Shown here piece after piece: positions 4,541 to 25,800 of a DNA stretch of 33,260 nucleotides. Made by a program: the position numbers and the translations under genes. This stretch comes from Tissierellia bacterium (GTDB lineage: Bacteria; Bacillota; Clostridia; Tissierellales; Tepidimicrobiaceae): assembly GCA_012518955.1 (NCBI GenBank), contig JAAYRD010000147.1, forward strand, positions 1-33,260. Reading direction: 5' to 3'. The notes beneath the pieces were generated by a model. That model made no database searches and was not told the origin of the DNA. It was given only the letters and a program-made list of their open reading frames with translations. The stretch's first letter is position 1. Every line of letters begins with the position of its first letter.

Positions 4541-5719
4541 TTACAGCATAGATGAAAGAACATGGACCTTAGACACAATGCCTTTTAAGCCATTATCTTC
4601 ATCAACTACGGCTATGGGAAATGGAGTTTCAGTTGCCATAGATATAATATCCGTTAATAGAGTATCTGGGGATGTTTTATTTATATCCCTTATCAATATA
4701 TCGGATATAGTCAATCCTTCTTTCCTAGCTTGGATAGCATCATCAATAGTAATTACACCTTGCAATTTCATCTTTTCTCCTACTACATAGGCACTAGATA
4801 CTCCATTGGATTTCATAGTATTGATTGCATAATTAAGATTATCTCTTAATCTAACTATGCTATTTGGTCTAATCATTACATTTCTAACACTTATTACTTG
4901 AGTTTTATCTGCACTATCTATAAATTGTTTTACATAGTCAGTTGCAGGATGTTCACTCATTTCTTCTGGGGTTGCCACTTGAATAATTTCTCCATCTTTC
5001 ATAATAGCCACTCTATCTCCTAGTTTAAAAGCTTCATCGATATCGTGAGTTATAAATATTATGGTTTTATTTAGTTTTCTTTGAATCGTTAATAATTCAA
5101 ATTGCATATCCTTTCTAACCAAGGGGTCTAGGGCTGAAAAAGGCTCATCCATTAGAAGTATTTCTGGATCATTTGCTAAGGCTCTTGCTATGCCTACTCT
5201 TTGCTTCATACCACCTGAAAGACTAGAGATAGGTTCATTCTCATGGCCATCTAAACCTACCATAGAAATCATTTCCTTAGCTTTGGTACGCCGTTCTTCC
5301 TTAGGCATTCCCTTTACTTCTAAGCCGTATTCTACATTTCCTATTACATCCCTGTGGGACATGAGTCCAAATTGTTGGAAGACCATGGATATTTTATTTC
5401 TTCTATAATCATTTAATTGTTCTTTATTAAATTTACTTATATCCTTACCTTGAAAATATATTTGTCCTGATGTTGGTTTATTTAGCATATTAAAACATCT
5501 TACCAATGTGGATTTACCTGAGCCAGATAGACCTATTATTACAAAAACTTCTCCTTCTTTTATATCCAAGGTTGCATCCCAAAGGGCTATTGTGACACCT
5601 GTTTTTTCATATATCGTGTCTTTATCAGCCCCTGATTGCTTTAATTTTATAGCTTTGTTCTTTTCTGAACCATAAAGTTTTGATACATTTCTTACGCTTA
5701 ATAAGTTATTATTTTCCAT
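4541..5719 (-). CDS. opuAA: Glycine betaine/proline ABC transporter ATPase with CBS domains
   Basis: A 392-residue ATPase of the OpuA/ProV group that energises osmolyte import at the inner face of the membrane. Walker A is GLSGSGKST (63-71), the Q-loop is VFQQFG (about 113-118), the ABC signature LSGGMKQR (167-174), Walker B ILLMDEPFSALD (187-198) and the switch histidine lies in FITHD (223-227). Residues from about 280 to the end form a CBS pair; in OpuA-type transporters CBS modules sense ionic strength or c-di-AMP. The start lies 11 nt inside the upstream permease gene with GAGGTGAG upstream, so the two are translationally coupled. It is the last gene of the operon. Confidence 0.93.
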   Translation of the reverse strand: MENNNLLSVRNVSKLYGSEKNKAIKLKQSGADKDTIYEKTGVTIALWDATLDIKEGEVFVIIGLSGSGKSTLVRCFNMLNKPTSGQIYFQGKDISKFNKEQLNDYRRNKISMVFQQFGLMSHRDVIGNVEYGLEVKGMPKEERRTKAKEMISMVGLDGHENEPISSLSGGMKQRVGIARALANDPEILLMDEPFSALDPLVRKDMQFELLTIQRKLNKTIIFITHDIDEAFKLGDRVAIMKDGEIIQVATPEEMSEHPATDYVKQFIDSADKTQVISVRNVMIRPNSIVRLRDNLNYAINTMKSNGVSSAYVVGEKMKLQGVITIDDAIQARKEGLTISDILIRDINKTSPDTLLTDIISMATETPFPIAVVDEDNGLKGIVSKVHVLSSML

Positions 5720-6584
5720 CAGATCTCACCTCACTACGTTGAACAAAACCTTGGGTGATCCTATCAAGAATAACCGCTATTATTACTACAGCAGTACCAG
5801 ATACCAATCCTCTACCAATTTCTACTCGATTAACTCCTATTAATACTTCCATACCTAAACCTGTAGCACCGATCATGGAGGTAGTTACGACCATTCCAAT
5901 AGCCATCATAAGGGTTTGGTTTACTCCTGCCATTATTGTAGGCAAGGCCTGGGGTATCTGGACCTTTACCAGAGATTGTAGTTTAGTTGAGCCAAAGGCC
6001 AAGGAAGCTTCTATAACTTCCCTATCTATTTGTCTTATTCCATGATTTGTAAGTCTTATAATGGGAACTATGGCGTATATGGTGGTTGCTATTACTGCTG
6101 GTGGCTTACCTAATCCAAAAAACAACAATGCTGGTATCAAATAAACAAACACTGGCATAGTTTGCATGGTATCCAATATAGGTCGTACTATTCTATCAGC
6201 CCTATCACTAGTAGATATTAGGATTCCCAATGGAAATCCTAATAATAGTGAAATAATTACTGATGCTATGACTATGGATAGTGTTTCATTCATTAAATCC
6301 CATAATCCTACTGCGCCTATGAGAAACAATGAAGCTCCGTATAATATTCCTGTACTAATTTTTTTAGACAATTTCCAGCCTGCTATAAACACTAATAGGA
6401 TAAGCACAAACCAAGGAATAAAGTCTAAAATATTATAGATAGAATTAACAAACCCATTTAAAGCCGATCTGATTACATTGAAAAAACTATCATATTTGGT
6501 GCTAAATCCTCTTACAGCATCATCAATGGCTCCAAGGTCAATAGGGATTTTAAAAGGAAAGTCGTATAACCAATCAGTATTCAT
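5709..6584 (-). CDS. opuAB: Glycine betaine/proline ABC transporter permease
   Basis: A 291-residue permease of the ProW/OpuAB type. After a hydrophilic N-terminus come about six or seven membrane segments (from IPWFVLILLVFIAGW onward). The EAA loop that docks with the ATPase is EASLAFGSTKLQSLVKVQIP, followed by LPTIMAGVNQTLMMAIGMV, which is highly typical of this family. It has no fused substrate-binding domain; that is a separate lipoprotein encoded upstream. GGGGGG lies upstream of the ATG at good spacing. It sits between the lipoprotein gene (11 nt gap) and the ATPase gene (overlap), so the three are one operon. Confidence 0.93.
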   Translation of the reverse strand: MNTDWLYDFPFKIPIDLGAIDDAVRGFSTKYDSFFNVIRSALNGFVNSIYNILDFIPWFVLILLVFIAGWKLSKKISTGILYGASLFLIGAVGLWDLMNETLSIVIASVIISLLLGFPLGILISTSDRADRIVRPILDTMQTMPVFVYLIPALLFFGLGKPPAVIATTIYAIVPIIRLTNHGIRQIDREVIEASLAFGSTKLQSLVKVQIPQALPTIMAGVNQTLMMAIGMVVTTSMIGATGLGMEVLIGVNRVEIGRGLVSGTAVVIIAVILDRITQGFVQRSEVRSDGK

Positions 6585-6595
6585 AAAAATCCCCC

Positions 6596-7588
6596 CTATT
6601 TATTTAAATAATTCTTCATAGTTTCAGCATCTTCTGATTCTAACCATTCATCCAATAGCTCTTCATTTTCCCTCAAGAACCATTTAGCTGTTTCAATATA
6701 GTCGTCTCCTGTTTCTTGCATATGGGCTAAAGCTTCAGAAGTTAGCTGACTAGATGTTTTGTAATTGCTTAGGAATTCAAGTATTTCCGGATTATCCTCT
6801 GCAAAATCGTTGCTTGTAGCGACAGTTACCTTAACTGCTGGTAATTCGGTTTCTCCTTCAGTATAGGTTTCCTCATCAAAAGGCTCGTCCTCCAATAGAA
6901 CCATGTCATACATACCTAATAACCATGTAGGTTCCCAATAGTATGCAGCTATAGGCTCACCTTTATCGTAAGCCGATGTTATAGCAGTTGCTAGCGCAGC
7001 ATCAGAACCTGGCCTAAAATATATAAAATTATCATCTAAACCATAATGTAAATATTTCTTGTGCAATATCTCATCTACTTCCCATCCTGGAATCGCACCA
7101 TACATTCTACCCATACCTTCATTTTCATCATCTGGAAATACTTCAGGATAGTCCTTTAGATCCCATACATACTTTAAATCTGGTGCTAAAGGCTTAATAC
7201 CTCTTTCAGTATCTCCCTCGATTACATATCTAGGGACATAAACACCCTGATAGTTATCATCGAAGTTTATACTAAGCTCCTTTAATTTACCTTCAGCTAA
7301 ATCATCACCATATGTGGCTAAGTTATCAGTCCAAACTTCCATATGAACATCTATTTCCCCTTTTAGCAGTCCCTCGTGTAATACAGTGGTAGAACCAGGA
7401 ACCTCTCTCCATGAATACCCATATATTTCCTCTGCTATTATACCAGCCACTGCATTATGGAATTTAATACTATCCCACCCCGCATCTGCAAAAGCAATTT
7501 CCTTATTTCCAGATGTCCCTCCGGAACATCCAACCATTGTCAAAGCAATTAAAGAAAACAACAATACTACACTTGTTATCTTTTTCAT
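6596..7588 (-). CDS. opuAC: Glycine betaine-type substrate-binding lipoprotein
   Basis: A 330-residue lipoprotein that captures a quaternary-ammonium osmolyte outside the cell and hands it to the permease. It has a short lipoprotein signal peptide with lipobox LTMVGC (cysteine at about residue 21). The mature part starts with IAFADAGWDSIKFHN, a typical OpuAC opening, and keeps aromatic-rich segments that could form the ligand cage (MEVWTDN, IPGWEVDE, AYYWEPTWLLG). Ligand may be glycine betaine, proline betaine, carnitine or choline; residues alone do not decide. It is the first gene of the operon, whereas in Bacillus subtilis opuA the ATPase comes first. AAGGAAGGTG precedes the ATG. A c-di-AMP riboswitch lies in its leader. 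Confidence 0.92.
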   Translation of the reverse strand: MKKITSVVLLFSLIALTMVGCSGGTSGNKEIAFADAGWDSIKFHNAVAGIIAEEIYGYSWREVPGSTTVLHEGLLKGEIDVHMEVWTDNLATYGDDLAEGKLKELSINFDDNYQGVYVPRYVIEGDTERGIKPLAPDLKYVWDLKDYPEVFPDDENEGMGRMYGAIPGWEVDEILHKKYLHYGLDDNFIYFRPGSDAALATAITSAYDKGEPIAAYYWEPTWLLGMYDMVLLEDEPFDEETYTEGETELPAVKVTVATSNDFAEDNPEILEFLSNYKTSSQLTSEALAHMQETGDDYIETAKWFLRENEELLDEWLESEDAETMKNYLNK

Positions 7589-7740: not shown

Positions 7741-7870
7741 AACATGACTCCCTTTAAACGCCTACGAGGTTAGCTGTCGGGTTAGAGCAAAAGGGAAGCT
7801 CTTCAAAACATGATTCACCCCAAAAGTTGGTTCCCCCGCTTCTTAAAAAAGAATTAAGCGATGCAATTCA
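7741..7870 (-). ncRNA. c-di-AMP riboswitch (ydaO/yuaA class)
   Basis: Read on the minus strand, the leader contains the hallmarks of the ydaO/yuaA aptamer in order: CGCTTAATTC, then AGCGGGGGAACCA (about 7840-7828), TTGGGGTGAATC (about 7823-7812), and the highly conserved 3' block AACCCGACAGCTAAC plus CTCGTAGGCG (7783-7759). It lies between a good promoter and an intrinsic terminator, upstream of the betaine transporter operon. Osmolyte and potassium transporters are the classic targets of this switch: c-di-AMP is high when the cell is osmotically loaded, so the operon would be turned off. The boundaries are approximate. Confidence 0.92.
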
Positions 7871-11863: not shown

Positions 11864-12000
11864 TGGATTTTATTAAAAGATATGTGATGTTTTAAAGGGA
11901 ATACACTAGAGATTTATAACATATAAATAACCTATATATGAAACTTATATTCACCAAACTTGCAAATCGTAGAAAACAAAAATATTTAGGGGGAAAGAAT

Positions 12001-13347
12001 ATGAATTATAATGGGATCGATACTTTAAGACCAAATCTTTTTAAGGATGTATTTCCTTATTCGGAAATTCCAAAGATTAAGTTTAATAATATTCAACTGC
12101 CAATGGAAATTCCAGAGAAGATATGGATTACAGATACAACATTTAGGGATGGTCAACAATCCATGTCACCTATGACAGTTGACCAAATAGTGAAAATATA
12201 TGACTATCTTCATCGTTTGGATAATGGTTCTGGAGTTATAAGGCAGACAGAGTTTTTCTTGTATTCTCCTAAGGATAGAGAAGCTGTAGAAAAATGTATG
12301 GATAAGGGATATGAGTTCCCTCAAATAACTTCTTGGATTAGGGCTCATAAAGAAGATTTTAAGTTGGTTAAACAAATGAAGATTAAGGAAACGGGAATCC
12401 TTATGTCTTGTTCTGACTATCATATATTTCATAAATTGAAAATGAATAGAAAAGAAGCTATGAATACTTATTTATCTATAGCAGAATCTGCCCTGGATAG
12501 TGGAATCATACCTAGATGTCATTTTGAAGATATAACAAGAGCAGATTTCTTTGGATTTGTTGCGCCATTGGCAAAGAACCTGATGAAACTATCCGATAAA
12601 TACAATTTACCTGTTAAGATAAGGGCTTGTGATACCTTAGGGTTAGGAGTTTCATACATGGGGGTAGAATTGCCTAGATCTATACCTGCTATCATTCATG
12701 GATTAAGATATTATTGTAATGTACCTTCAGAAAACATTGAATGGCACGGACACAATGATTTCAATGCAGTTGTTACCAATTCTACAACTACCTGGTTATA
12801 TGGAGGATCTTCTGTAAACACAACCTTGTTTGGAATTGGTGAAAGAACTGGAAACTGTCCATTAGAAAGTATGTTGTTTGAATATGCACAAATCAAGGGA
12901 ACTACTGAAGGAATGAACCTTAAGATTATTTCAGAGATAGCGGATTATTTTGAAAAAGAATTGGGTTATTCAATACCAGCTCGCACTCCCTTTGTAGGTA
13001 GTGAATTTAATGTTACTAGAGCAGGAATCCATGCAGATGGATTGTTGAAAGATAAGGAGATATACAATAGTTTTGATACAGAAAAGATTCTAGGAAGTCC
13101 ACCTATTGTAGCTGTAAATCCATATTCTGGATTAGCTGGTATAGCTGCATGGATAAATGGCTATTTTAAGCTAGATGGTTCCAATAAAATAGATAAAAAT
13201 GATGGAAGAATACTTCCAATTAAAAAATGGGTAGATGAAGAGTATGCAAATGGTAGAACCTCAAAGATTAGAAATGATGAACTTAAGGATCTAGTATTTA
13301 GATATATTCCAAATATATTAGGAAATGAAGAAACAAAGGCTATTTAA
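12001..13347 (+). CDS. Re-citrate synthase
   Basis: A 448-residue enzyme that condenses oxaloacetate and acetyl-CoA to citrate with Re-face stereochemistry. It belongs to the DRE-TIM family with isopropylmalate and homocitrate synthases: the metal and catalytic motif is DTTFRDGQQ (45-53), the metal histidines are H249 and H251 in EWHGHNDF, and [13 protein letters not shown] follows. The long [29 protein letters not shown] and [16 protein letters not shown] segments are characteristic of the Clostridium kluyveri-type Re-citrate synthase. The aconitase and isocitrate dehydrogenase genes next to it confirm the assignment over homocitrate synthase. The ATG at 12001 has AGGGGGA upstream; an in-frame ATG at 11938 has no RBS. 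It opens a four-gene operon. Confidence 0.9.
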
Positions 13348-13367
13348 AATTGGGATGGAGGTATAAT

Positions 13368-15284
13368 ATGAAATTAACAATAACGGAAAAAATAATAAAA
13401 GATCACATAGTCACTGGAGAGTTAAAAAAGGGAACAGAAATAGGTCTAAGGATTGACCAGACTCTAACTCAGGACTCAACAGGCACTATGGCATATCTTC
13501 AATTTGAAGCTATGGGAATAGATAAGGTTAAAACAAAGAAATCTGTGGCCTATATTGATCATAATATGTTGCAAGCAGGTCCAGAAAATGCGGATGATCA
13601 TCTATATATACAAACGGTGGCTAAAAAACACGGAATATACTTTTCAAGACCAGGTAATGGAATATGTCACCAGGTTCATTTAGAGAGATTTGGAGTTCCA
13701 GGAGATACCCTCCTTGGTTCTGATAGTCATACCCCAACTTGTGGAGGTATAGGGATGTTGGCTATAGGTGCAGGAGGATTGGATGTGGCTGTAGCTATGG
13801 CAGGTGGAGAGTATTTTATAACCATGCCTTATATAGTAAAGGTAGAATTGAGAGGAAAATTAAATCCAGGGGTAGCGGCTAAAGATATAATCCTTGAGGT
13901 TTTGAATAGAGCCGGAGTTAAGGGTGGCTTGAATAAGGTATTTGAATACTCAGGGGATGGGATCAAATATTTATCTGTACCTGAAAGGGCTACCATAACC
14001 AATATGGGAGCAGAATTAGGGGCTACTACTTCCATATTTCCTTCTGATGATATAACTTATCAATTCTTAAAAGCTCAAAAAAGAGAAGAAGATTATAATG
14101 AGCTAATAGCCGATGAAGGTGCAGTTTACGATGAGGAGATAGTAATAGATCTTGAAAAGTTGGAGCCTATGGTGGCTTGTCCTCATAGCCCTGATAATGT
14201 AGTACCTGTATCTACCTTGAATGATATTAAGGTTAATCAGGTAGCAATAGGAAGCTGTACTAATTCATCTTATATGGATCTAATGAAGGTTGCTGAAATC
14301 TTAGATGGGAAAACCGTAGCAGAGGATATTTCATTGGTTATATCTCCAGGTTCAAAACAAGTGTTAAATATGCTTGCGGAAAATGGAGCATTATCCAAAC
14401 TTATTGCAGCTGGAGCCAGAATATTGGAGTGCGGATGTGGACCTTGTATTGGTATGGGCCAGGCACCTAGTACAGATGGGGTTTCACTAAGAACCTTCAA
14501 TAGAAACTTCAAAGGCAGATCTGGAACTACTTCTGCTGATGTATATCTGGTAAGTCCAGAGGTGGCTGCCGTTTCTGCCATAACAGGATATATTACAAAT
14601 CCTATAGATCATATAACTAGTTTTAACATAGAGGTTCCCAAGGAATTTAAGATAAATGATAATTTGATAGTAGCTCCAATTAAGGATGGTAGTGATATCG
14701 ATATAATTAGAGGGCCCAATATTCAACCTTTTCCAAAATCAGATGCTTTAGGAGAGGAAGTAATGGGTAAAGTTCTTATAAAAGTAGGGGACGATATAAC
14801 TACGGATCATATAATGCCTTCCAATGCTAAGCTTTTACCTTATAGATCCAATATCCCCTATTTAGCAGATTATTGTTTTGTACCATGTGATCCAGAGTTT
14901 CCTAAGAGGGCAAAAGAAAATGGTGGAGGAATTATTATTGGAGGATTCAATTATGGGCAGGGTTCAAGTCGTGAACATGCGGCTTTGGCTCCATTATATT
15001 TAGGGATTAGGGTGGTTATAGCTAAATCCTTTGCAAGGATACACAAACAAAACTTAATAAATAATGGGATACTTCCTTTGGTATTTGAAAATGAGAGAGA
15101 CTTCGATTGTATAGATCTGTTAGACGAATTAGTTGTAGAGAAAGCTTCACATCAGATTGAAGGAAATAAAGTAACTATAAAGAATAGAACTAAAAAAGAA
15201 GAATATAGTTTACTATTAGATATAACGGAAAGGCAAAGAGATATGCTAGTAGCAGGTGGTCTTTTGAATTTAATGAAATCCTAG
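13368..15284 (+). CDS. acnA: Aconitate hydratase
   Basis: A 638-residue aconitase that isomerises citrate to isocitrate through cis-aconitate, using a [4Fe-4S] cluster. Cluster ligands are C297 in [11 protein letters not shown] and C357 and C360 in [10 protein letters not shown]. Substrate-contact segments include [21 protein letters not shown] in the first half and [13 protein letters not shown] in the swivelling C-terminal domain, which begins around [24 protein letters not shown]. The size matches the shorter aconitases of clostridia and Thermotoga, not the 890-residue AcnA/AcnB of enterics. The ATG at 13368 follows GATGGAGG; the frame's TTG at 13350 overlaps the RBS. It lies 20 nt after the Re-citrate synthase gene. 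Confidence 0.92.
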
Positions 15285-15311
15285 CATACTATTTTTGAAA
15301 GGAGAATACTT

Positions 15312-16310
15312 ATGACATATAATATAACACTGCTTCCGGGGGATGGCATAGGTCCGGAAGTAATAACTTCAGCAAGAAAGGTCATTGAAGCTACTGGTGT
15401 TTCTATAAATTGGGAAATTGTAGAAGCTGGAAATGATGCTATAAAAAAGCATGGTACACCCCTTCCTGAATTTGTTATAGATAGTATAAGGAATAATAAG
15501 ATAGCGCTAAAAGGTCCTATAACTACTCCTGTAGGCAAAGGGTTCAAAAGTGTAAATGTAAGGTTGAGACAAGAATTGAATCTATTTGCTAATGTTAGAC
15601 CTATAAAATCCTTTGAAGGAATTGATAGTATACATCAGAATGTGGACTTTGTAATAGTAAGGGAAAATACCGAGGATCTATATGCTGGCATAGAACATAT
15701 GGTAGGAGAGGATGCCGCTGAAAGCATAAAGATTATAACTAGAAAAGCAAGTGAAAGGATATGTAAATTTGCTTTTGAGCTGGCAAAGTCACAAGGTAGA
15801 AAAAAGGTTACCTTAGTTCATAAAGCCAATATAATGAAGCTTTCCGATGGACTGTTTTTAGAATCTGGGAAAAAGTGTGCAAAATCATATGAGGATATAC
15901 AATTTGAAGATATAATAGTTGATGCAATGAGTATGAAATTGGTTCAATTTCCTCAAGATTATGATATAATAGTAGCACCAAATTTATATGGGGATATATT
16001 ATCTGATTTATCCGCAGGACTTATAGGAGGTTTAGGATTAGCAGCCGGAGCTAATATAGGCCATGATATTGCTGTATTTGAACCAATTCATGGGTCTGCA
16101 TTGGATATATCAGGGAAAGATATGGCCAATCCTACATCTGCAATATTATCAGGTGTAATGATGTTAAAACATATTGGGGAATATGGTTCTGCAATGAAGA
16201 TAGAGGATGCATTGGCTAAAGTGTTTAGGGACAAAAGATATAGGACCATAGATTTGGGTGGAGACCTTGGAACCAAGGAGTTTACACAGAAGATTATTGA
16301 TACAATGTAA
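15312..16310 (+). CDS. icd: Isocitrate dehydrogenase, NAD type
   Basis: A 332-residue beta-decarboxylating dehydrogenase that turns isocitrate into 2-oxoglutarate. Substrate residues are S80 and the arginines of KSVNVRLRQELNLFANVRP, plus RENTEDLYAGIEH with Tyr124. The metal aspartates are in NLYGDILSDLSAG. The cofactor loop reads EPIHGSALDISGKDMANP; an Asp at position 265 is the residue that binds the adenosine ribose in NAD-dependent members, where NADP enzymes have Lys-Tyr. Isopropylmalate dehydrogenase is the main alternative by sequence family, but the citrate synthase and aconitase neighbours settle the role. AAAGGAG precedes the ATG. Confidence 0.88.
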   Translation: MTYNITLLPGDGIGPEVITSARKVIEATGVSINWEIVEAGNDAIKKHGTPLPEFVIDSIRNNKIALKGPITTPVGKGFKSVNVRLRQELNLFANVRPIKSFEGIDSIHQNVDFVIVRENTEDLYAGIEHMVGEDAAESIKIITRKASERICKFAFELAKSQGRKKVTLVHKANIMKLSDGLFLESGKKCAKSYEDIQFEDIIVDAMSMKLVQFPQDYDIIVAPNLYGDILSDLSAGLIGGLGLAAGANIGHDIAVFEPIHGSALDISGKDMANPTSAILSGVMMLKHIGEYGSAMKIEDALAKVFRDKRYRTIDLGGDLGTKEFTQKIIDTM

Positions 16311-16344
16311 AGTAAACTTTATTAGATTGGGGGTAGTTTAATAA

Positions 16345-19300
16345 ATGGTTAAAAAGTTTAGGAAAATCCTAGTGGCGAATAGGGGAGAAATAGCAATAAG
16401 AATATTTAGAGCTTGTAGTGAATTAGGAATAAGATCTATAGCTATATATTCTAACGAGGATAAAAATTCTCTCTTTAGAACAAAGGCTGATGAATCCTAT
16501 TTAATAGGACAGAACAAAGGGCCCATAGATGCCTATTTAAACATTGACGAAATCATTAATCTTGCATTGAAAAAAGGTGTGGATGCCATACATCCAGGAT
16601 ATGGTTTTTTATCTGAAAACCCGGAGTTTGCAAAGAAATGTCATGAGGTTGGGATTGAATTCATAGGTCCAACATATGAAATGATGGAGCAGTTGGGAGA
16701 TAAGGTAAAATCCAAAAAAGTAGCCAATAGCGTTGGGGTACCAATCATCCCAGGTTTAGAGAAAGTTGCTTTTACGGAAGAAGATGCTATAGAAATGGCT
16801 AATTATTGCGGATATCCCGTAATCTTAAAAGCTGCTGCTGGTGGTGGCGGTAGAGGGATGAGAGTAGTAAGGGAAGAGAAGGACTTGATAAAAGAATACC
16901 AAAGTGCAAAAAATGAAGCTAAGAAAGCTTTTGGTATAGACGATATATTTATAGAAAAATATCTGGAAAATCCAAAACATATAGAAGTTCAAATAATGGG
17001 AGATAAATATGGAAATGTCGTACATCTATATGAAAGGGATTGCTCTATCCAGAGAAGGCATCAAAAAGTAGTTGAATATACGCCTGCATTTACCTTAACA
17101 GAAGAGCAAAGAAAAAACATTTGCGATGATGCTGTTAAAATAGCAAAGGCTGTTAATTATAGGAATGTGGGAACAGTTGAATTTTTATTAGATTCCCATG
17201 GAAACCATTATTTTATAGAAGTCAATCCAAGAATACAGGTTGAGCATACGGTATCTGAGATGACAACTGGTATCGATATTGTGCAAAATCAGATCCTATT
17301 AGCCGAGGGATATTCTCTTGATTCTGATGAAATAGGGATTAAGGGACAAGAAGATATTCAACCTAGAGGATATGCTATTCAATGTAGGGTTACCACTGAG
17401 GATCCATTGAACAATTTTGCTCCAGATACAGGTGCTATAGATATATATAGAACCGGTTCTGGATTTGGAATAAGATTAGACGGGGGCAGTGGATTTACTG
17501 GAGCAGTCATAAGCCCTTATTATGACAGTCTTTTGGTAAAGGTTACTTCTTGGTCTAGAACTTTTGATGATGCTGCTAGAAAGGCTCGCAGAGCATTAGG
17601 AGAGCTTAAGATTAGGGGAGTAAAGACTAATGTACCATTCTTGGTAAATGTTCTAAATCATGAGAAGTTTTTAAGTGGAAAATGTGATACTGGATTTATA
17701 CTAAAGAATCCAGAATTGTTTGATATAACTACTAGCAGGGATAGAGAGCTTAGAGTTCTTAATTATATAGGAGAAAAGGTAGTAAATGAAACCAAAGGTA
17801 ATAAACCAGATTTTGATGTTCCTAAAGTTCCAGAGGTAGTTAGACCTGAAAGACAATATGGTACTAAGCAGATATTGGATGAAAAAGGGCCGGAAGGATT
17901 GGTTGAATGGATTAAAGGCAATGACAACCTATTGTTGACGGATACAACAATGAGGGATGCTCATCAATCTTTAATGGCTACTAGGGTAAGAACTACGGAT
18001 ATGTTAAAAATTGCAAAGGCAACCTCTGTATTGGGTAAGGATTTGTTTTCCTTAGAGATGTGGGGAGGAGCTACTTTTGATGTGGCCTATAGATTCTTAA
18101 ATGAATCCCCTTGGACAAGGTTGGAACTTTTAAGAAAGAAGATACCTAATATATTATTCCAAATGTTACTTAGGGGAGCCAATGGAGTAGGCTATAAGAA
18201 TTATCCGGACAATGTAATAAGAGAATTTGTAAGGCAATCCGCTGAAAGTGGAATAGATGTATTTAGGATATTTGATTCTTTGAATTGGTTAAAAGGTATG
18301 GAAGTAGCCATAGATGAAGTGTTAAAATCTGGTAAGATAGCAGAAGCTTGCATATGTTATACTGGTGATATTTTGGACAAAAGCAAGGATAAATATACTT
18401 TAGATTATTATGTAAAGACAGCAAAGGAAATAGAGAAAACGGGAGCTCATATATTAGGAATTAAGGATATGTCTTCCCTATTGAAGCCAGAGGCAGCTTA
18501 TCAATTAGTGAAAGCATTGAAGGAAGAGATAAGTATTCCAATCCATTTGCATACCCATGATACAAGTGGCAATGGAATTGCAACTGTATTGATGGCAGCC
18601 CATGCTGGAGTGGATATAGTAGATACAGCATTCAATAGTATGGCAGGGCTAACAAGTCAACCAGCTCTAAATTCTGTAGTTGCGGCTTTGGAACATACGG
18701 ATAGAAGTACTGGATTGGAATTAGACGATTTGCAGACTATATCTGACTATTGGAGCGCTGTAAGACCAGTTTATAGTCAGTTTGAATCAGGACTAAAATC
18801 GGGAACTACTGAAATATATAAATATGAGATTCCTGGAGGTCAATATTCAAACCTTAGGCCTCAGGTTGAAAGTTTTGGACTAGGACATAGATTTGAAGAA
18901 GTTAAGGAGATGTATAAGGTTGTAAATGAAATGCTGGGAGATATAGTAAAGGTTACACCTTCTTCTAAGGTTGTAGGAGATATGGCTATATTCATGGTAC
19001 AAAACGATCTGACTCCAGAAAACATCTATGAAAAGGCCAAAGATAGGGCTTTTCCAGATTCATTGGTATCATATTTCCAGGGAATGATGGGTCAACCTAT
19101 GGGTGGATTCCCAGAGAGACTGCAGAAACTAGTACTAAAAGGAGAAGAACCTATAACCTGTAGACCAGGAGAATTACTTGAACCTGAAGACTTTGAAAAG
19201 ATCGAGCAGGAATTGAGAGATGAACATGGCATAGAGCCGGATATGAAGGATATCCTATCCTATGCACTATATCCTAAGGTATTTGAGGATTATCTAAAAT

Positions 19301-19776
19301 ATATTAAGGAGCAGGGCGATTTTAGTAGGATGGGTAGCGATATATTTTTCCATGGTCTAAGAGAAGGGGAGACCTGTGAAGTAGAAATTGATGAAGGAAA
19401 AGTATTGGTCATAAAGCTTCTAGAAATAGGTAGACTAGACGATGAAGGCTATAGGACCTTATACTTTGAGGTGAACGACAGTAGGAGAGCTGTTAAGATA
19501 TTTGATAAAGCAAGCAATGTAGTAAATGACGTAGCTTATACACAGATGGCAGATCCGGAAAACGAGCTAGAAATTGGAGCAAGTATTCCAGGAGTTGTGG
19601 CAAAGATATTGGTAGAACCTGGTGATGAGGTTAAAGAAAACCAATTGGTGGCAGTAATAGAGGCCATGAAGATGGAAACCCATGTTACTACTAATGTAGC
19701 TGGAACAGTTCAATCCATAGGAGTTAAAGAAGGGGATAATGTAGAAGCTGGAGAACTGTTGATTAGATTAGAATAA
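16345..19776 (+). CDS. pyc: Pyruvate carboxylase
   Basis: A 1143-residue biotin enzyme that carboxylates pyruvate to oxaloacetate with ATP and bicarbonate. The biotin carboxylase domain (about 1-450) shows AAAGGGGRGMR (163-172) and the EVNPRIQVEHTVSE motif. The carboxyltransferase barrel begins with DTTMRDAHQS (533-542); K707 of GIKDMSSL is the probable carbamylated lysine, and H736 and H738 in HLHTHD bind metal. The biotinyl domain ends the protein with K1109 in EAMKMETH. It is full length with all domains on one chain. It lies last in the operon and supplies oxaloacetate to the Re-citrate synthase. Start is preceded by GGGGG. Whether acetyl-CoA activates it cannot be seen. Confidence 0.97.
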   Translation: MVKKFRKILVANRGEIAIRIFRACSELGIRSIAIYSNEDKNSLFRTKADESYLIGQNKGPIDAYLNIDEIINLALKKGVDAIHPGYGFLSENPEFAKKCHEVGIEFIGPTYEMMEQLGDKVKSKKVANSVGVPIIPGLEKVAFTEEDAIEMANYCGYPVILKAAAGGGGRGMRVVREEKDLIKEYQSAKNEAKKAFGIDDIFIEKYLENPKHIEVQIMGDKYGNVVHLYERDCSIQRRHQKVVEYTPAFTLTEEQRKNICDDAVKIAKAVNYRNVGTVEFLLDSHGNHYFIEVNPRIQVEHTVSEMTTGIDIVQNQILLAEGYSLDSDEIGIKGQEDIQPRGYAIQCRVTTEDPLNNFAPDTGAIDIYRTGSGFGIRLDGGSGFTGAVISPYYDSLLVKVTSWSRTFDDAARKARRALGELKIRGVKTNVPFLVNVLNHEKFLSGKCDTGFILKNPELFDITTSRDRELRVLNYIGEKVVNETKGNKPDFDVPKVPEVVRPERQYGTKQILDEKGPEGLVEWIKGNDNLLLTDTTMRDAHQSLMATRVRTTDMLKIAKATSVLGKDLFSLEMWGGATFDVAYRFLNESPWTRLELLRKKIPNILFQMLLRGANGVGYKNYPDNVIREFVRQSAESGIDVFRIFDSLNWLKGMEVAIDEVLKSGKIAEACICYTGDILDKSKDKYTLDYYVKTAKEIEKTGAHILGIKDMSSLLKPEAAYQLVKALKEEISIPIHLHTHDTSGNGIATVLMAAHAGVDIVDTAFNSMAGLTSQPALNSVVAALEHTDRSTGLELDDLQTISDYWSAVRPVYSQFESGLKSGTTEIYKYEIPGGQYSNLRPQVESFGLGHRFEEVKEMYKVVNEMLGDIVKVTPSSKVVGDMAIFMVQNDLTPENIYEKAKDRAFPDSLVSYFQGMMGQPMGGFPERLQKLVLKGEEPITCRPGELLEPEDFEKIEQELRDEHGIEPDMKDILSYALYPKVFEDYLKYIKEQGDFSRMGSDIFFHGLREGETCEVEIDEGKVLVIKLLEIGRLDDEGYRTLYFEVNDSRRAVKIFDKASNVVNDVAYTQMADPENELEIGASIPGVVAKILVEPGDEVKENQLVAVIEAMKMETHVTTNVAGTVQSIGVKEGDNVEAGELLIRLE

Positions 19777-21327: not shown

Positions 21328-21372
21328 AAAAAACAAACTTTGGTCTAATTTTTAGACCAAAGTTTGTTTTTT
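21328..21372. terminator. Strong terminator after brnQ
   Basis: A perfect 20-bp stem (21328-21347 with 21353-21372) containing AACTTTGGTCTA and a 5-nt loop, flanked by A6 and T6. Works on both strands. Confidence 0.9.
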
Positions 21373-21612: not shown

Positions 21613-23001
21613 GTGGATAAAATAGTATATCCTTATATACCTAACTCAGTACCAGAAATTAAGAAACAGATGTTAGAAGAACTAGGTCTAAAGGATGTGG
21701 AAGAAATTTATGCAGAAATTCCAGATCATTTACGATTTAAAGGTGAAATGGATTTGCCAGAGCCTCTTTTATCAGAATATGAATTGGAAAGGCATGTGGA
21801 AGGACTGCTGGCTAAAGATAAGGATTGTAAAGAATATATAAATTTTTTGGGTGGTGGAACCTGGCAGCATTATGTACCAGAGGTATGCGATACAATAAAC
21901 TCTAGAGATGAGTTTCTAACAGCATATGTAGGAGCTGCATATGCAGACCATGGTAAATTTCAAGCTATGTTTGAATTCACTAGTATGTTAGGAGAGTTAT
22001 TAGATTTTGATGTGGTAAGTACTCCTACATACGATTGGGGAATGGCAGCGGGTTTTGCTATAAGAATGGCGGCTAGAATTACAGGTAGAAATGAAGTATT
22101 AATTCCTAAAACTATAGCTCCTGATCGTTATCTATGTATAGAAAATGTATGTAAACCTATAATTAAAATTAAACTTATTGATTACAATAAGGAATCAGGT
22201 TTGCTTGATTTAGAAGATCTTAAGGATAATATTTCGGATAAGACTGCGGCTATATATTTTGAAAACCCCTCATATCTTGGCTTTATAGAAACTCAAGGAG
22301 AAGAAATTTCAAGGATTGTCCATGAAAACAATGCTATTAGTATAGTAGGGGTAGACCCCAGTTCATTAGGAGTACTGGCACCTCCAAGTCATTACGGTGC
22401 AGACATTGCATGTGGAGAGCTTCAACCATTAGGTATGCATATGAATGCTGGAGGAGGTCTTGCAGGGTTTATAGCTTCTAGAGATGAAGAAAAATATGTT
22501 GCAGAATATCCAACTCAACTTTGGGGAATAACGGAAACCATTAAAGAAGGAGAATATGGGTTTGGCGATGTAAGTTTTGAAAGGACTTCCTATGCATCTA
22601 GGGAGAATGCAAAAGATTTTCTAGGTACTCAGGCTGCTTTATGGGGTATTACAGCAGGGGTATATCTTGCACTTATGGGTCCTAAGGGAATGCAAGAGTT
22701 AGGGGAAGGAATAATGCAAAGAGTAAATTATGCTCAGCACATATTAGGTAAAATTCCAGGAGTTAAAGTGCCAACATTAAATTCCATTAATTTTAAGGAG
22801 TTTATAGTAAACTTTGATGATACTGATAAGGATGTATCAGATATAAATAGAAATTTATTAGAGTATGGAATATTTGGGGGAAAAGATCTCTCTAAAGAAT
22901 TTCCAGAGTTAGGAAATAGCGCACTCTATTGTATTACTGAAATTCATACAAAGAGTGATATAGATAAGCTGGCAGATATTCTTAAGAAAGTATTAGCATA
23001 A
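21613..23001 (+). CDS. Divergent GcvPA-like PLP protein (P-protein N-terminal half)
   Basis: A 462-residue protein aligning in layout with subunit 1 of two-subunit glycine dehydrogenase (decarboxylating). It opens with YIPNSVPEIKKQMLEELGL and has LPEPLLSEYELERHVEGLLAK, as in GcvPA. Several family motifs are changed: GGGTWQHYVPEV (80-91) where GcvPA has GAGxYDHYIPSV; TPTYDWGMAAG (137-147) instead of xxMYDGATAxAEA; and ELQPLGMHMNAGGGLAG (269-285) instead of GxGQxLGxPLSFGGPYLGF. The usual RREKATSNICT region reads ASRENAKDFLGTQ. Automatic annotation would call it gcvPA, but the substrate may not be glycine. It starts with GTG behind GGAGGG, 28 nt before its partner gene; the pair is one operon. 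Confidence 0.8.
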   Translation: MDKIVYPYIPNSVPEIKKQMLEELGLKDVEEIYAEIPDHLRFKGEMDLPEPLLSEYELERHVEGLLAKDKDCKEYINFLGGGTWQHYVPEVCDTINSRDEFLTAYVGAAYADHGKFQAMFEFTSMLGELLDFDVVSTPTYDWGMAAGFAIRMAARITGRNEVLIPKTIAPDRYLCIENVCKPIIKIKLIDYNKESGLLDLEDLKDNISDKTAAIYFENPSYLGFIETQGEEISRIVHENNAISIVGVDPSSLGVLAPPSHYGADIACGELQPLGMHMNAGGGLAGFIASRDEEKYVAEYPTQLWGITETIKEGEYGFGDVSFERTSYASRENAKDFLGTQAALWGITAGVYLALMGPKGMQELGEGIMQRVNYAQHILGKIPGVKVPTLNSINFKEFIVNFDDTDKDVSDINRNLLEYGIFGGKDLSKEFPELGNSALYCITEIHTKSDIDKLADILKKVLA

Positions 23002-23029
23002 AAGTATTGAAAAAAGGGGAGGTATAAAC

Positions 23030-24583
23030 ATGGCAAAGCTAAAGATACGAGAAAATTATCATCAGGCTAGATGGGATGAGCCGATTATATATGAGCTTTC
23101 AACACCAGGAGAACGAGGAATACTAGTTCCAGAACCAGAACCAGAAATTAAGAATAAAGCCGGAGATGTGCTGTTAAATCTACCAGAATCTATGTGTCGT
23201 AAAGAAGAACCCAATTTACCTGAAATATCTCAAAAACAAGTATTAGCTCACTATTTACATCTCTCGCAGGAAACACTAGGGTCAAACTTGAACAATGATA
23301 TAAGTCAAGGTACCTGTACTATGAAATATAATCCTAGAATAAATGAAAAGTTAGCAGGGTTGATCCATCATGTACATCCATTACAAGATGAAAGTACTAT
23401 GCAAGGTCTTTTAGCTATAAATTATAAATTTGAACATTTCTTAAAAGAAATATCGGGGATGGATAAATTTACATTACAACCTGGTGGCGGCTCCCATGCA
23501 GTATATACTGCTGCATCAATAATTAGAGCATATCATGAATCAAATGGAGAGCTAGAGCAGCGAGATGAGATTATAACTACTATATTTTCACATCCTTGTG
23601 ATGCTGCAACTCCTGCTACTGCTGGATTTAAGGTTGTAACATTGTATCCAAATGAAGAAACTGGTATTCCGGACTTAGAGGCATTAGAAGAGGCAGTATC
23701 CGAACGTACTGCAGCTGTATTCATTACAAACCCAGAAGATACGGGAATCTATAATAGGGAAATTGATAAATTTGTTCAAACAGTTCAAAATGCGGGAGCC
23801 TTGTGTTTTTATGATCAGGCTAACGCCAATGGGATGTTGGGAATTACTAGGGCTAGAGAAGCTGGATTTGATATGTGTCATTTTAATGTCCACAAGACTT
23901 TCGGTACACCTCATGGCTGTTCAGGACCTGGATCAGGAGCCTTGGGAGTAAGAGAGCATTTGGTTAGGTTTTTACCGGTTCCTACAGTTGAGTTTGATGG
24001 AGAAAAATATTATCTAGATTATGATAAACCTGAAAGTATAGGAAAGGTAAGGGGATTTTTTGGAGTTGCTCCAGTTACTTTGAAAGCATATAGCTGGGTT
24101 ATGATGCTAGGGGCTGAAGGGTTAAAAGAAGTTGCAGAGATTTCCGTTTTAAACAACAATTATCTGCAAAAGAAGGTAGAGGAAATACCCGGAGTTGGTA
24201 CTTGGTACGCTGAAGGACGTCGCCGACTAGAGCAGGTGAGATATAATTGGATTGAACTCGAGGAAGAAACAGGAGTGGGTACTGATGATATTATGAGGAG
24301 AATAGGAGATTATGGAATTCAACATTATTGGACCAGTCATCACCCTTGGGTGGTGCCAGAGCCATTTACTCTCGAACCTTGCGAAACCTATTCAAAGGTA
24401 GATTTAGAGGAATATGCTGCAGTATTGAAAAAAATAGCTGAAGAAGCTCGAAAAGATTCAGAGTTTGTAAAAGCTTCCCCTCACAAATGTGCAAGTCATA
24501 ATATAGCTAAACCTGAAGAATTAAATGATCCAGAAAAATGGGCAATAACTTGGAGGGCTTATCTAAGAAAACATAAAAAATAA
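23030..24583 (+). CDS. Divergent GcvPB-like PLP protein (P-protein C-terminal half)
   Basis: A 517-residue partner of the preceding gene. GcvPB-type parts include QGTCTMKYNPRIN (93-105), KYYLDYDKPESIGKVRGFFG and the Schiff-base lysine K289 in FNVHKTFGTPHGCSGPGSG. Changes from the standard subunit are marked: PGGGSHAVY (151-159) instead of PxAGAHGE, FSHPCDAATPATA (186-198) instead of DSAHGTNPASA, FYDQANANGML for YYDGANLNAIM, and HGCSGPGSG for HGGGGPGSG. The catalytic lysine is kept, so it is probably an active PLP enzyme on a different amino acid or with a different acceptor. No gcvT, gcvH or lpd lies nearby. AAAAGGGGAGG precedes the ATG. Confidence 0.8.
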   Translation: MAKLKIRENYHQARWDEPIIYELSTPGERGILVPEPEPEIKNKAGDVLLNLPESMCRKEEPNLPEISQKQVLAHYLHLSQETLGSNLNNDISQGTCTMKYNPRINEKLAGLIHHVHPLQDESTMQGLLAINYKFEHFLKEISGMDKFTLQPGGGSHAVYTAASIIRAYHESNGELEQRDEIITTIFSHPCDAATPATAGFKVVTLYPNEETGIPDLEALEEAVSERTAAVFITNPEDTGIYNREIDKFVQTVQNAGALCFYDQANANGMLGITRAREAGFDMCHFNVHKTFGTPHGCSGPGSGALGVREHLVRFLPVPTVEFDGEKYYLDYDKPESIGKVRGFFGVAPVTLKAYSWVMMLGAEGLKEVAEISVLNNNYLQKKVEEIPGVGTWYAEGRRRLEQVRYNWIELEEETGVGTDDIMRRIGDYGIQHYWTSHHPWVVPEPFTLEPCETYSKVDLEEYAAVLKKIAEEARKDSEFVKASPHKCASHNIAKPEELNDPEKWAITWRAYLRKHKK

Positions 24584-24658: not shown

Positions 24659-24687
24659 ATACGATATAACAAAGGGGGTTGAAATCT

Positions 24688-25800
24688 TTGAAACTAGGAT
24701 TTATAGTAAATCCTATTGCAGGTATGGGAGGAAAAGTAGGTCTTAAGGGTACTGATGGGATGGAAATTTTAGAAAAAGCACGTAGATTAGGAGCTTATCC
24801 CGAAGCCCCCAAGAAGGCAAAAAAAGCTCTTAAACTTTTAACTCCTCTTATTAATGATATAGAGATTCTGACTTATCCTGGTAAGATGGGAGAAGATGAG
24901 GCTATTGCATTAGGATTTAATCCAAAGGTTTTAGGAGAAAAAAAGGATATTGTAGGACCTGATGATACAGAGGAAGCTGCTAGAAAGATGCTGGACATGG
25001 ATATAGATCTATTACTTTTTGCTGGAGGAGACGGTACTGCGAGAAATATATACAATGTTGTAGGTGATAAGGTGCCAGTCCTTGGTATACCAGCAGGAGT
25101 GAAGATCCATTCAGCAGTCTATGCAAATCATCCTAGAAGTGCAGGAGAGGTAGCATTGAAGTATCTTAAAGGAGAGCTAACAAGAATAAGGGAAGCTGAA
25201 GTAATGGATATAGATGAGGCAGCCTTTCGAAAAGAGCAGGTAACGGCAAAATTATATGGTTATATGAAAGTACCTTTTGAACAACAGCTAGTTCAAAGTC
25301 TTAAAGCAGGAAGACCAGAGGAAGAAGAGTCAGCGAGGGATTCAATAGCGGATAGGGTTGTAGCAGAAATGAAGCCTGATGTTCTATATATTATAGGCTC
25401 CGGTACATCTACAAGACCCATAATGGAGAAGTTAGGATTACCCAACACCCTTTTAGGAATTGATATTGTGAAAAATAAGAAGATAGTAGCTTCTGACGTT
25501 AGTGAGAGGGAAATTTTAGAACATATAGAAGGTAGGAAGGCCAAAATAATAGTTACGGTTATTGGAGGACAAGGATATATATTTGGCAGAGGGAACCAAC
25601 AACTTAGTGGAAATGTCATACGAAAGATAGGAATAGATAATATACGGATTATTGCCACAAAAAATAAACTTGTCTCCTTAGGAGGGCAGCCAATTTTAGT
25701 AGACACTGGAGATGACAAGGTAAATAATATGTTTAATAGATATATGAGGGTTGTAACAAGCTATAATGAGGAGATTATATATAAGGTAAAGGGATTATGA
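24688..25800 (+). CDS. ATP-NAD kinase-like protein, COG3199/AcoX type
   Basis: A 370-residue cytosolic protein related to NAD kinases. The N-terminus LGFIVNPIAGMGGKVGLKGTDG and the diacylglycerol/NAD-kinase motif GGDGTARN (113-120) are clear; GVKIHSAVYANHP follows, and the C-terminal half has GSGTSTRPIMEKLGLPNTLLGIDIV. These fit the COG3199 group, which includes AcoX of acetoin operons and is annotated as ATP-NAD kinase or polyphosphate-dependent kinase; the true substrate is not established for the group. I chose the TTG at 24688 because GGGGG at 24674-24678 is 9 nt away; the in-frame TTG at 24679 abuts the RBS. It follows the P-protein-like pair by about 100 nt but has its own promoter. Confidence 0.8.
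   Translation: MKLGFIVNPIAGMGGKVGLKGTDGMEILEKARRLGAYPEAPKKAKKALKLLTPLINDIEILTYPGKMGEDEAIALGFNPKVLGEKKDIVGPDDTEEAARKMLDMDIDLLLFAGGDGTARNIYNVVGDKVPVLGIPAGVKIHSAVYANHPRSAGEVALKYLKGELTRIREAEVMDIDEAAFRKEQVTAKLYGYMKVPFEQQLVQSLKAGRPEEEESARDSIADRVVAEMKPDVLYIIGSGTSTRPIMEKLGLPNTLLGIDIVKNKKIVASDVSEREILEHIEGRKAKIIVTVIGGQGYIFGRGNQQLSGNVIRKIGIDNIRIIATKNKLVSLGGQPILVDTGDDKVNNMFNRYMRVVTSYNEEIIYKVKGL

Follow-up and report, generated by a model that had tools for sequence, protein, structure and literature searches.

Locus and annotation

A 33,260-nucleotide stretch of DNA from a Tissierellia bacterium (here called the window) carries two adjacent genes that look like the two subunits of the P-protein of the glycine cleavage system. 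Do they encode glycine dehydrogenase, or a different enzyme? The first gene, PA' (positions 21613 to 23001, forward strand), encodes a GcvPA-like alpha subunit of 462 aa with a GTG start, and the second, PB' (23030 to 24583, forward strand), a GcvPB-like PLP-binding subunit of 517 aa. PA' scores 465.9 bits against the NCBIfam model for GcvPA (PRK00451, cut-off 364) and PB' 539.5 bits against that for GcvPB (PRK04366, cut-off 441); Pfam places GDC-P in PA' and GcvP2_C with Aminotran_5 in PB'. These matches bear out the two-subunit layout that a sequence-only reading of the region had proposed, and the PLP lysine that it took to be retained is indeed there, as K289 in the HKTF of PB'. That reading had drawn the unit as 21613 to 24583, which covers both open reading frames but leaves out a near-constant third gene, AX (24679 to 25800, forward strand). 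It mentioned neither this kinase-like gene nor the dehydrogenases and riboswitches described below, and it missed how widespread the family is.

Because the NCBIfam scores exceed the GcvPA and GcvPB cut-offs, automatic annotation calls such a pair glycine dehydrogenase, and family members in public records do bear the names gcvPA and gcvPB. Those scores and the retained PLP lysine are what the pair would share with a diverged but ordinary P-protein. The window's genome, however, has a complete ordinary gcvT-gcvH-gcvPA-gcvPB set on contig C15, the second canonical set that the sequence-only reading had proposed to look for. PA'/PB' are therefore the second P-protein-like pair of this genome, PA' being about 34% identical to the genome's own canonical GcvPA. 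There is no gcvT or gcvH linked to PA'/PB' at the window locus, and genome-wide searches found no copy of GcvT or GcvH outside contig C15, where they sit beside gcvPA-gcvPB. The earlier description of the pair as lacking GcvT and GcvH is thus right for the locus and wrong for the genome.

An A/T-rich inverted repeat ending in a T-run (21332 to 21371, no strand assigned) lies in the gap between brnQ and PA'. Judged by eye to be a probable terminator, and absent from the output of a consensus terminator scan, it suggests that PA' starts its own transcript. BrnQ was considered as a functional partner of the pair and dropped, since brnQ is not conserved among the relatives. Elsewhere in the window, a c-di-AMP riboswitch (RF00379, 91.5 bits; 7743 to 7870, reverse strand) immediately precedes an ABC transporter operon for betaine, proline or choline (4541 to 7588), which fits osmotic control. 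The region from 11938 to 19776 encodes a homocitrate/isopropylmalate-synthase-like protein (469 aa), aconitase, isocitrate dehydrogenase and pyruvate carboxylase; it resembles an oxidative-branch route to 2-oxoglutarate in which the first gene is possibly a Re-type citrate synthase.

Phylogeny and distribution

In a tree of concatenated PA and PB sequences, a single branch (SH-aLRT 100) splits 87 paralogue pairs from the canonical pairs. A careful tree of 51 rows gives the same split (bootstrap/SH-aLRT 100/100) and puts the window pair outside the canonical clade. With the pair outside that clade and another P-protein in the genome, neither finding by which the sequence-only reading could have fallen was obtained. 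The tree and the second set largely refute the view that PA'/PB' are a diverged glycine cleavage P-protein, against which the coordinated replacement of invariant residues (see below) also counts; we regard it as very improbable, and are confident that PA'/PB' form a separate PLP enzyme family.

How widespread is this family? A scan of GTDB contigs gave at least 558 candidate stretches confirmed by tblastn; the 80 retained represent clostridia, bacilli, Chloroflexi, Aminicenantes, Deltaproteobacteria, Asgard archaea, Bathyarchaeota and others, and the clade also takes in actinobacteria, alphaproteobacteria and haloarchaea. Plasmid-borne relatives (45-49% identity) occur in Rhodococcus, Sphingomonas, Paracoccus, Gemmobacter and the haloarchaeon Natronosalvus. 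Among 60 related genomes the paralogue falls into three sub-types, with identities of 83-90%, about 59-64% and about 56%; the canonical proteins in the same comparison lie far below these (30-38%). The window pair belongs to a clade of loci without neighboring short-chain dehydrogenases (SDRs), with support of 100/100.

Two Bathyarchaeota P-proteins (L165 and L166) branch basally on the canonical side. Their active-site residues are the canonical ones, and several residues elsewhere are paralogue-like, a combination that, with their basal position, suggests an archaeal P-protein ancestor. The blast scores of their PA subunits place these nearer the paralogue than the canonical sister.

A search of the open literature found no description of the paralogue, of its AcoX linkage or of a 'GcvP-like' enzyme, and the family is apparently previously unreported. 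One gcvP pair is mentioned for Thermacetogenium phaeum in PMC12674515.

Active-site residues

The motifs lost from the paralogue are invariant among all P-proteins sampled. In the window, PA' has VG-AAYADHGK for TPYQxExSQG and RTSYASR..DFLG for REQHIRR..SNIC, and contains neither TPYQxExSQG nor REQHIRREKATSNIC. In numbering of the genome's own canonical GcvPA the substitutions are P101 to G, S107 to D, Q108 to H, E316-Q317 to T-S and C329 to G. PB' lacks both DSAHGTNPASA and HE(F/C)V: the former is replaced by FSHPCDAATPATA, and canonical H380-E381-x-V383 becomes E401-Q402-x-R404. The altered motifs of both subunits that had first drawn attention to the pair, FSHPCDAATPATA, HGCSGPGSG and TYDWGMAAG, had all been read correctly from the window.

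The same changes recur across the family. In the paralogue consensus of PA, TPYQxExSQG gives way to G..DHG[K/R] and REQHIRR to RTSYxxR, and glycine takes the place of the cysteine in SNIC; in that of PB, SAHGTNPA becomes SHPxDAA, the T of NPNTxG becomes D and HE(F/C)V becomes EQxR. Counting as a switch any position with a near-fixed residue in 19 canonical pairs and a different near-fixed residue in 87 paralogue pairs, we found 19 switches in PA and 25 in PB, which argues that the motif changes are not chance drift. PB' has gained R404 and H437 (each in 86 of the 87 paralogue pairs), and W356 and D237 are further new conserved residues, tryptophans being among the gains. Three residues are kept, namely the PLP lysine, the YDxAN aspartate and the SAH/FSH histidine, so that PLP chemistry is probably retained. 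As judged from sequence, it is probably the surroundings of the substrate or acceptor that have been rebuilt; the structural roles of the altered residues are what we infer here, the AlphaFold model of PB' (mean pLDDT 50) being too poor for use.

Gene neighborhood

AX lies 95 bp 3' of PB' and encodes an AcoX/ATP-NAD-kinase-like protein of 373 aa with a GGDGTAR motif. It exceeds the Pfam cut-offs for both NAD_kinase domains (N-terminal, 78.1 bits, cut-off 25.5; C-terminal, 52.5 bits, cut-off 23.7). Its AlphaFold model (pLDDT 82) gave only weak DAG-kinase/NAD-kinase-like matches with Foldseek, and an AX profile found no match among PDB sequences. In every relative locus whose contig is long enough, AX is the next gene after PB'. 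Across 96 loci, in which some genomes are represented twice, 93 have PA', 91 have PB', 73 have AX and 66 have a classical SDR cluster. The genes usually run in the order SDR(-SDR)-PA'-PB'-AX and are separated by anything from a few bases to tens of bases. On a Peptoclostridium acidaminophilum plasmid (L176, 6992 to 9068), an AX homologue overlaps a class I/II PLP aminotransferase-like gene in a locus without PA'/PB'; AX may therefore partner PLP enzymes more widely.

In clades other than the window's, the module also includes one or two NAD-type SDRs. Both SDR types have an aspartate after the second strand, a mark of NAD-dependent SDRs, and against the PDB they match generic classical SDRs alone, with no hint of substrate. 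The window locus has no adjoining SDR, and the best SDR in the window's genome is 41% identical.

Further linked genes point to a module tied to amino acids. They encode APC permeases, carriers of the Na+/H+-antiporter and SSF families, aminotransferases, M20 deacylases, an Asp/Glu racemase and a member of the proline racemase family. A CoA-transferase (of the acetyl-CoA hydrolase type, by sequence reading) lies beside the cassette at L049 to L051 and L098, and the Rhodococcus qingshengii and Gemmobacter clusters have an AMP-dependent CoA ligase, an APC permease and an SDR, with an M20 deacylase in Rhodococcus. CoA-handling genes are found near only a minority of loci; where present, they suggest that an acyl group is released or consumed. 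Beta-galactosidase and fucosidase neighbors at a few loci were judged incidental.

Two further arrangements were seen, both by sequence reading. At L051 (9502 to 18804) and L050, a type C paralogue operon is followed by genes for a CoA-transferase, methylmalonyl-CoA mutase subunits, methylmalonyl-CoA epimerase and a MeaB-like GTPase. At L107, a paralogue locus from Chloroflexi, a gene for a glycine-amidinotransferase-like protein (16913 to 18007, identified by eye) adjoins SDRs and a saccharopine-dehydrogenase-like gene.

Could the pair be a simple amino acid decarboxylase, converting glycine to methylamine in the window's clade and acting on other amino acids elsewhere, coupled to an APC-type amino acid/amine exchanger? 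An APC permease gene does lie directly 3' of AX at L064, L070 and L080, and likewise in the Gemmobacter, R. qingshengii and Aminicenantes loci; the Gemmobacter cluster also encodes a primary-amine oxidase, and the glycine induction described below would suit such an enzyme. A decarboxylase would, however, leave the NAD-type SDRs, the CoA-transferase and ligase genes and AX unexplained, and the sole permease at the window locus is the non-conserved BrnQ. We consider it improbable.

Glycine riboswitches

At five loci (L064, L068, L069, L070 and L079), all inside the window's own clade, glycine aptamers (RF00504) lie between the preceding gene and PA'. On folding, the 5' arm of a terminator includes GGACAG, the 3' strand of the P1 stem of the last aptamer; the overlap is clear in L064, L068, L069, L079 and the second L070 switch but is not clear in the first. 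Bound glycine would thus block the terminator, an ON architecture like that of gcv operons. Upstream of the window's PA' no RF00504 match rises above the gathering score, and a degenerate glycine riboswitch was looked for in the window and none found.

Since the operon is under glycine riboswitches in the window's clade, glycine is probably a substrate, product or signal there. This bears on the earlier proposal of a paralogous family, mis-annotated as glycine dehydrogenase, with another substrate: the second set, the tree and the motif replacement sustain the first part, whereas the riboswitches leave another substrate as one possibility, a changed acceptor or a changed type of bond being others.

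Relation to the glycine cleavage system

GcvH is present in 7/7 carriers of the pair compared with 113/384 genomes of the class at least 90% complete (Fisher p = 1.7e-4, genomes being counted regardless of kinship). A clear GcvH is present in 44 of the 47 genomes from which the GTDB loci come, and two of the remaining three show only weak matches (1e-4). This co-occurrence suggests a shared glycine flux, but it could equally mean that the enzyme uses H-protein, as would an alternative P-protein still able to load the lipoyl arm, whether from glycine under different conditions or from another aminomethyl donor (for example, with release of an acyl group from that donor instead of CO2). The glycine ON-riboswitches agree with this alternative, as does the placement of PA'-PB'-AX in L069 and L070, where the operon, with its own riboswitch, lies 3' of a complete gcv/lip/lpd operon (the lip and lpd names being assigned by size and order). 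Against it, motifs invariant in all sampled P-proteins are lost, the cassette has no dedicated GcvH, and AX and the SDRs go unexplained. Moreover, in four genomes that carry the pair (G003, G067, G075 and G096) GcvT and a canonical P-protein were not found and there is no clear GcvH, and two of these (G067 and G096) also lack the lipoate ligases LplA/LipB. These are draft genomes (G003 is 86% complete), and with gcvT-H-P in one operon a single assembly gap could remove all three genes; they are suggestive of an H-protein that is not obligatory. On balance an alternative P-protein seems to us somewhat unlikely.

Proposed function

We tentatively favor a distinct heteromeric PLP enzyme that works with AX and forms or cleaves a C-C bond at glycine's alpha-carbon, with no obligatory need for lipoyl H-protein as the acceptor. 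The reason for this preference is that one chemistry covers the SDRs, the acyl handling, the glycine control and the coupling to the glycine cleavage system. In the SDR-linked clades, an NAD+-type SDR would oxidize the beta-hydroxyl of a hydroxy-amino acid, and PA'PB' would split the beta-keto amino acid into glycine and an acyl group, as TDH and KBL do; the acyl group would be taken by a CoA-transferase or CoA ligase, and the ordinary glycine cleavage system would receive the glycine. In the window's clade, which lacks the SDR, this chemistry would likewise take place, induced by glycine, and might run in either direction. The family would then be a Claisen-type cleavage or ligation family with an AcoX-like partner and, where SDRs are linked, a hydroxy-amino-acid route hidden under the name 'glycine dehydrogenase'; we offer this as a possible reading only. 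We infer the reaction, its direction, the role of AX and the independence of H-protein. Glycine induction by itself would be compatible with a decarboxylase or an alternative P-protein as well, and a glycine-ON switch fits a consumer of glycine more simply than a producer, which tells against the reading preferred here.

Several hundred loci encode relatives of the pair, and glycine cleavage may be assigned to the wrong genes in metabolic models of amino acid fermenters, syntrophs and archaea, Asgard among them. The family shows one of the most highly conserved PLP active sites rebuilt in both subunits together, and through PA'/PB' the AcoX-like proteins may gain a defined partner. The constant partner, the operon context and the glycine riboswitches make the function directly testable.

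Comparison with known systems

With the two-subunit P-protein GcvPA/GcvPB (PDB 1wyt, 1wyu and 1wyv), PA'/PB' share two homologous fold-type-I PLP subunits, their order and the PLP lysine, and the homology is full-length (hmmsearch E 5.8e-73 for PA' and 2.4e-106 for PB'). They differ in that other conserved motifs replace TPYQxExSQG, REQHIRREKATSNIC and DSAHGTNPASA, in forming a separate clade, in having no gcvT/gcvH linkage and in having AX as a constant partner. Glycine riboswitches (RF00504) are familiar from gcvT-gcvH-gcvP operons, and the sister loci share the P1/terminator overlap of ON switches; the aptamers here precede PA'-PB'-AX instead, and there is none in the window.

The likeness to KBL with threonine dehydrogenase lies in the proposed reaction alone, in which an NAD dehydrogenase and a PLP enzyme yield glycine and acyl-CoA; KBL itself consists of one chain and belongs to another PLP family. 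The window pair has no match to KBL (TIGR01822), and KBL-family genes are found elsewhere in the genome. PA'/PB' as a replacement for KBL was rejected, KBL-family matches coexisting with the pair in 25 of the 32 genomes searched. Finally, AX matches both domains of the AcoX/ATP-NAD kinase family (PF01513 and PF20143) and keeps the GGDGT motif, but unlike AcoX it occurs, in the loci seen, with PA'/PB' and not with acetoin dehydrogenase genes.
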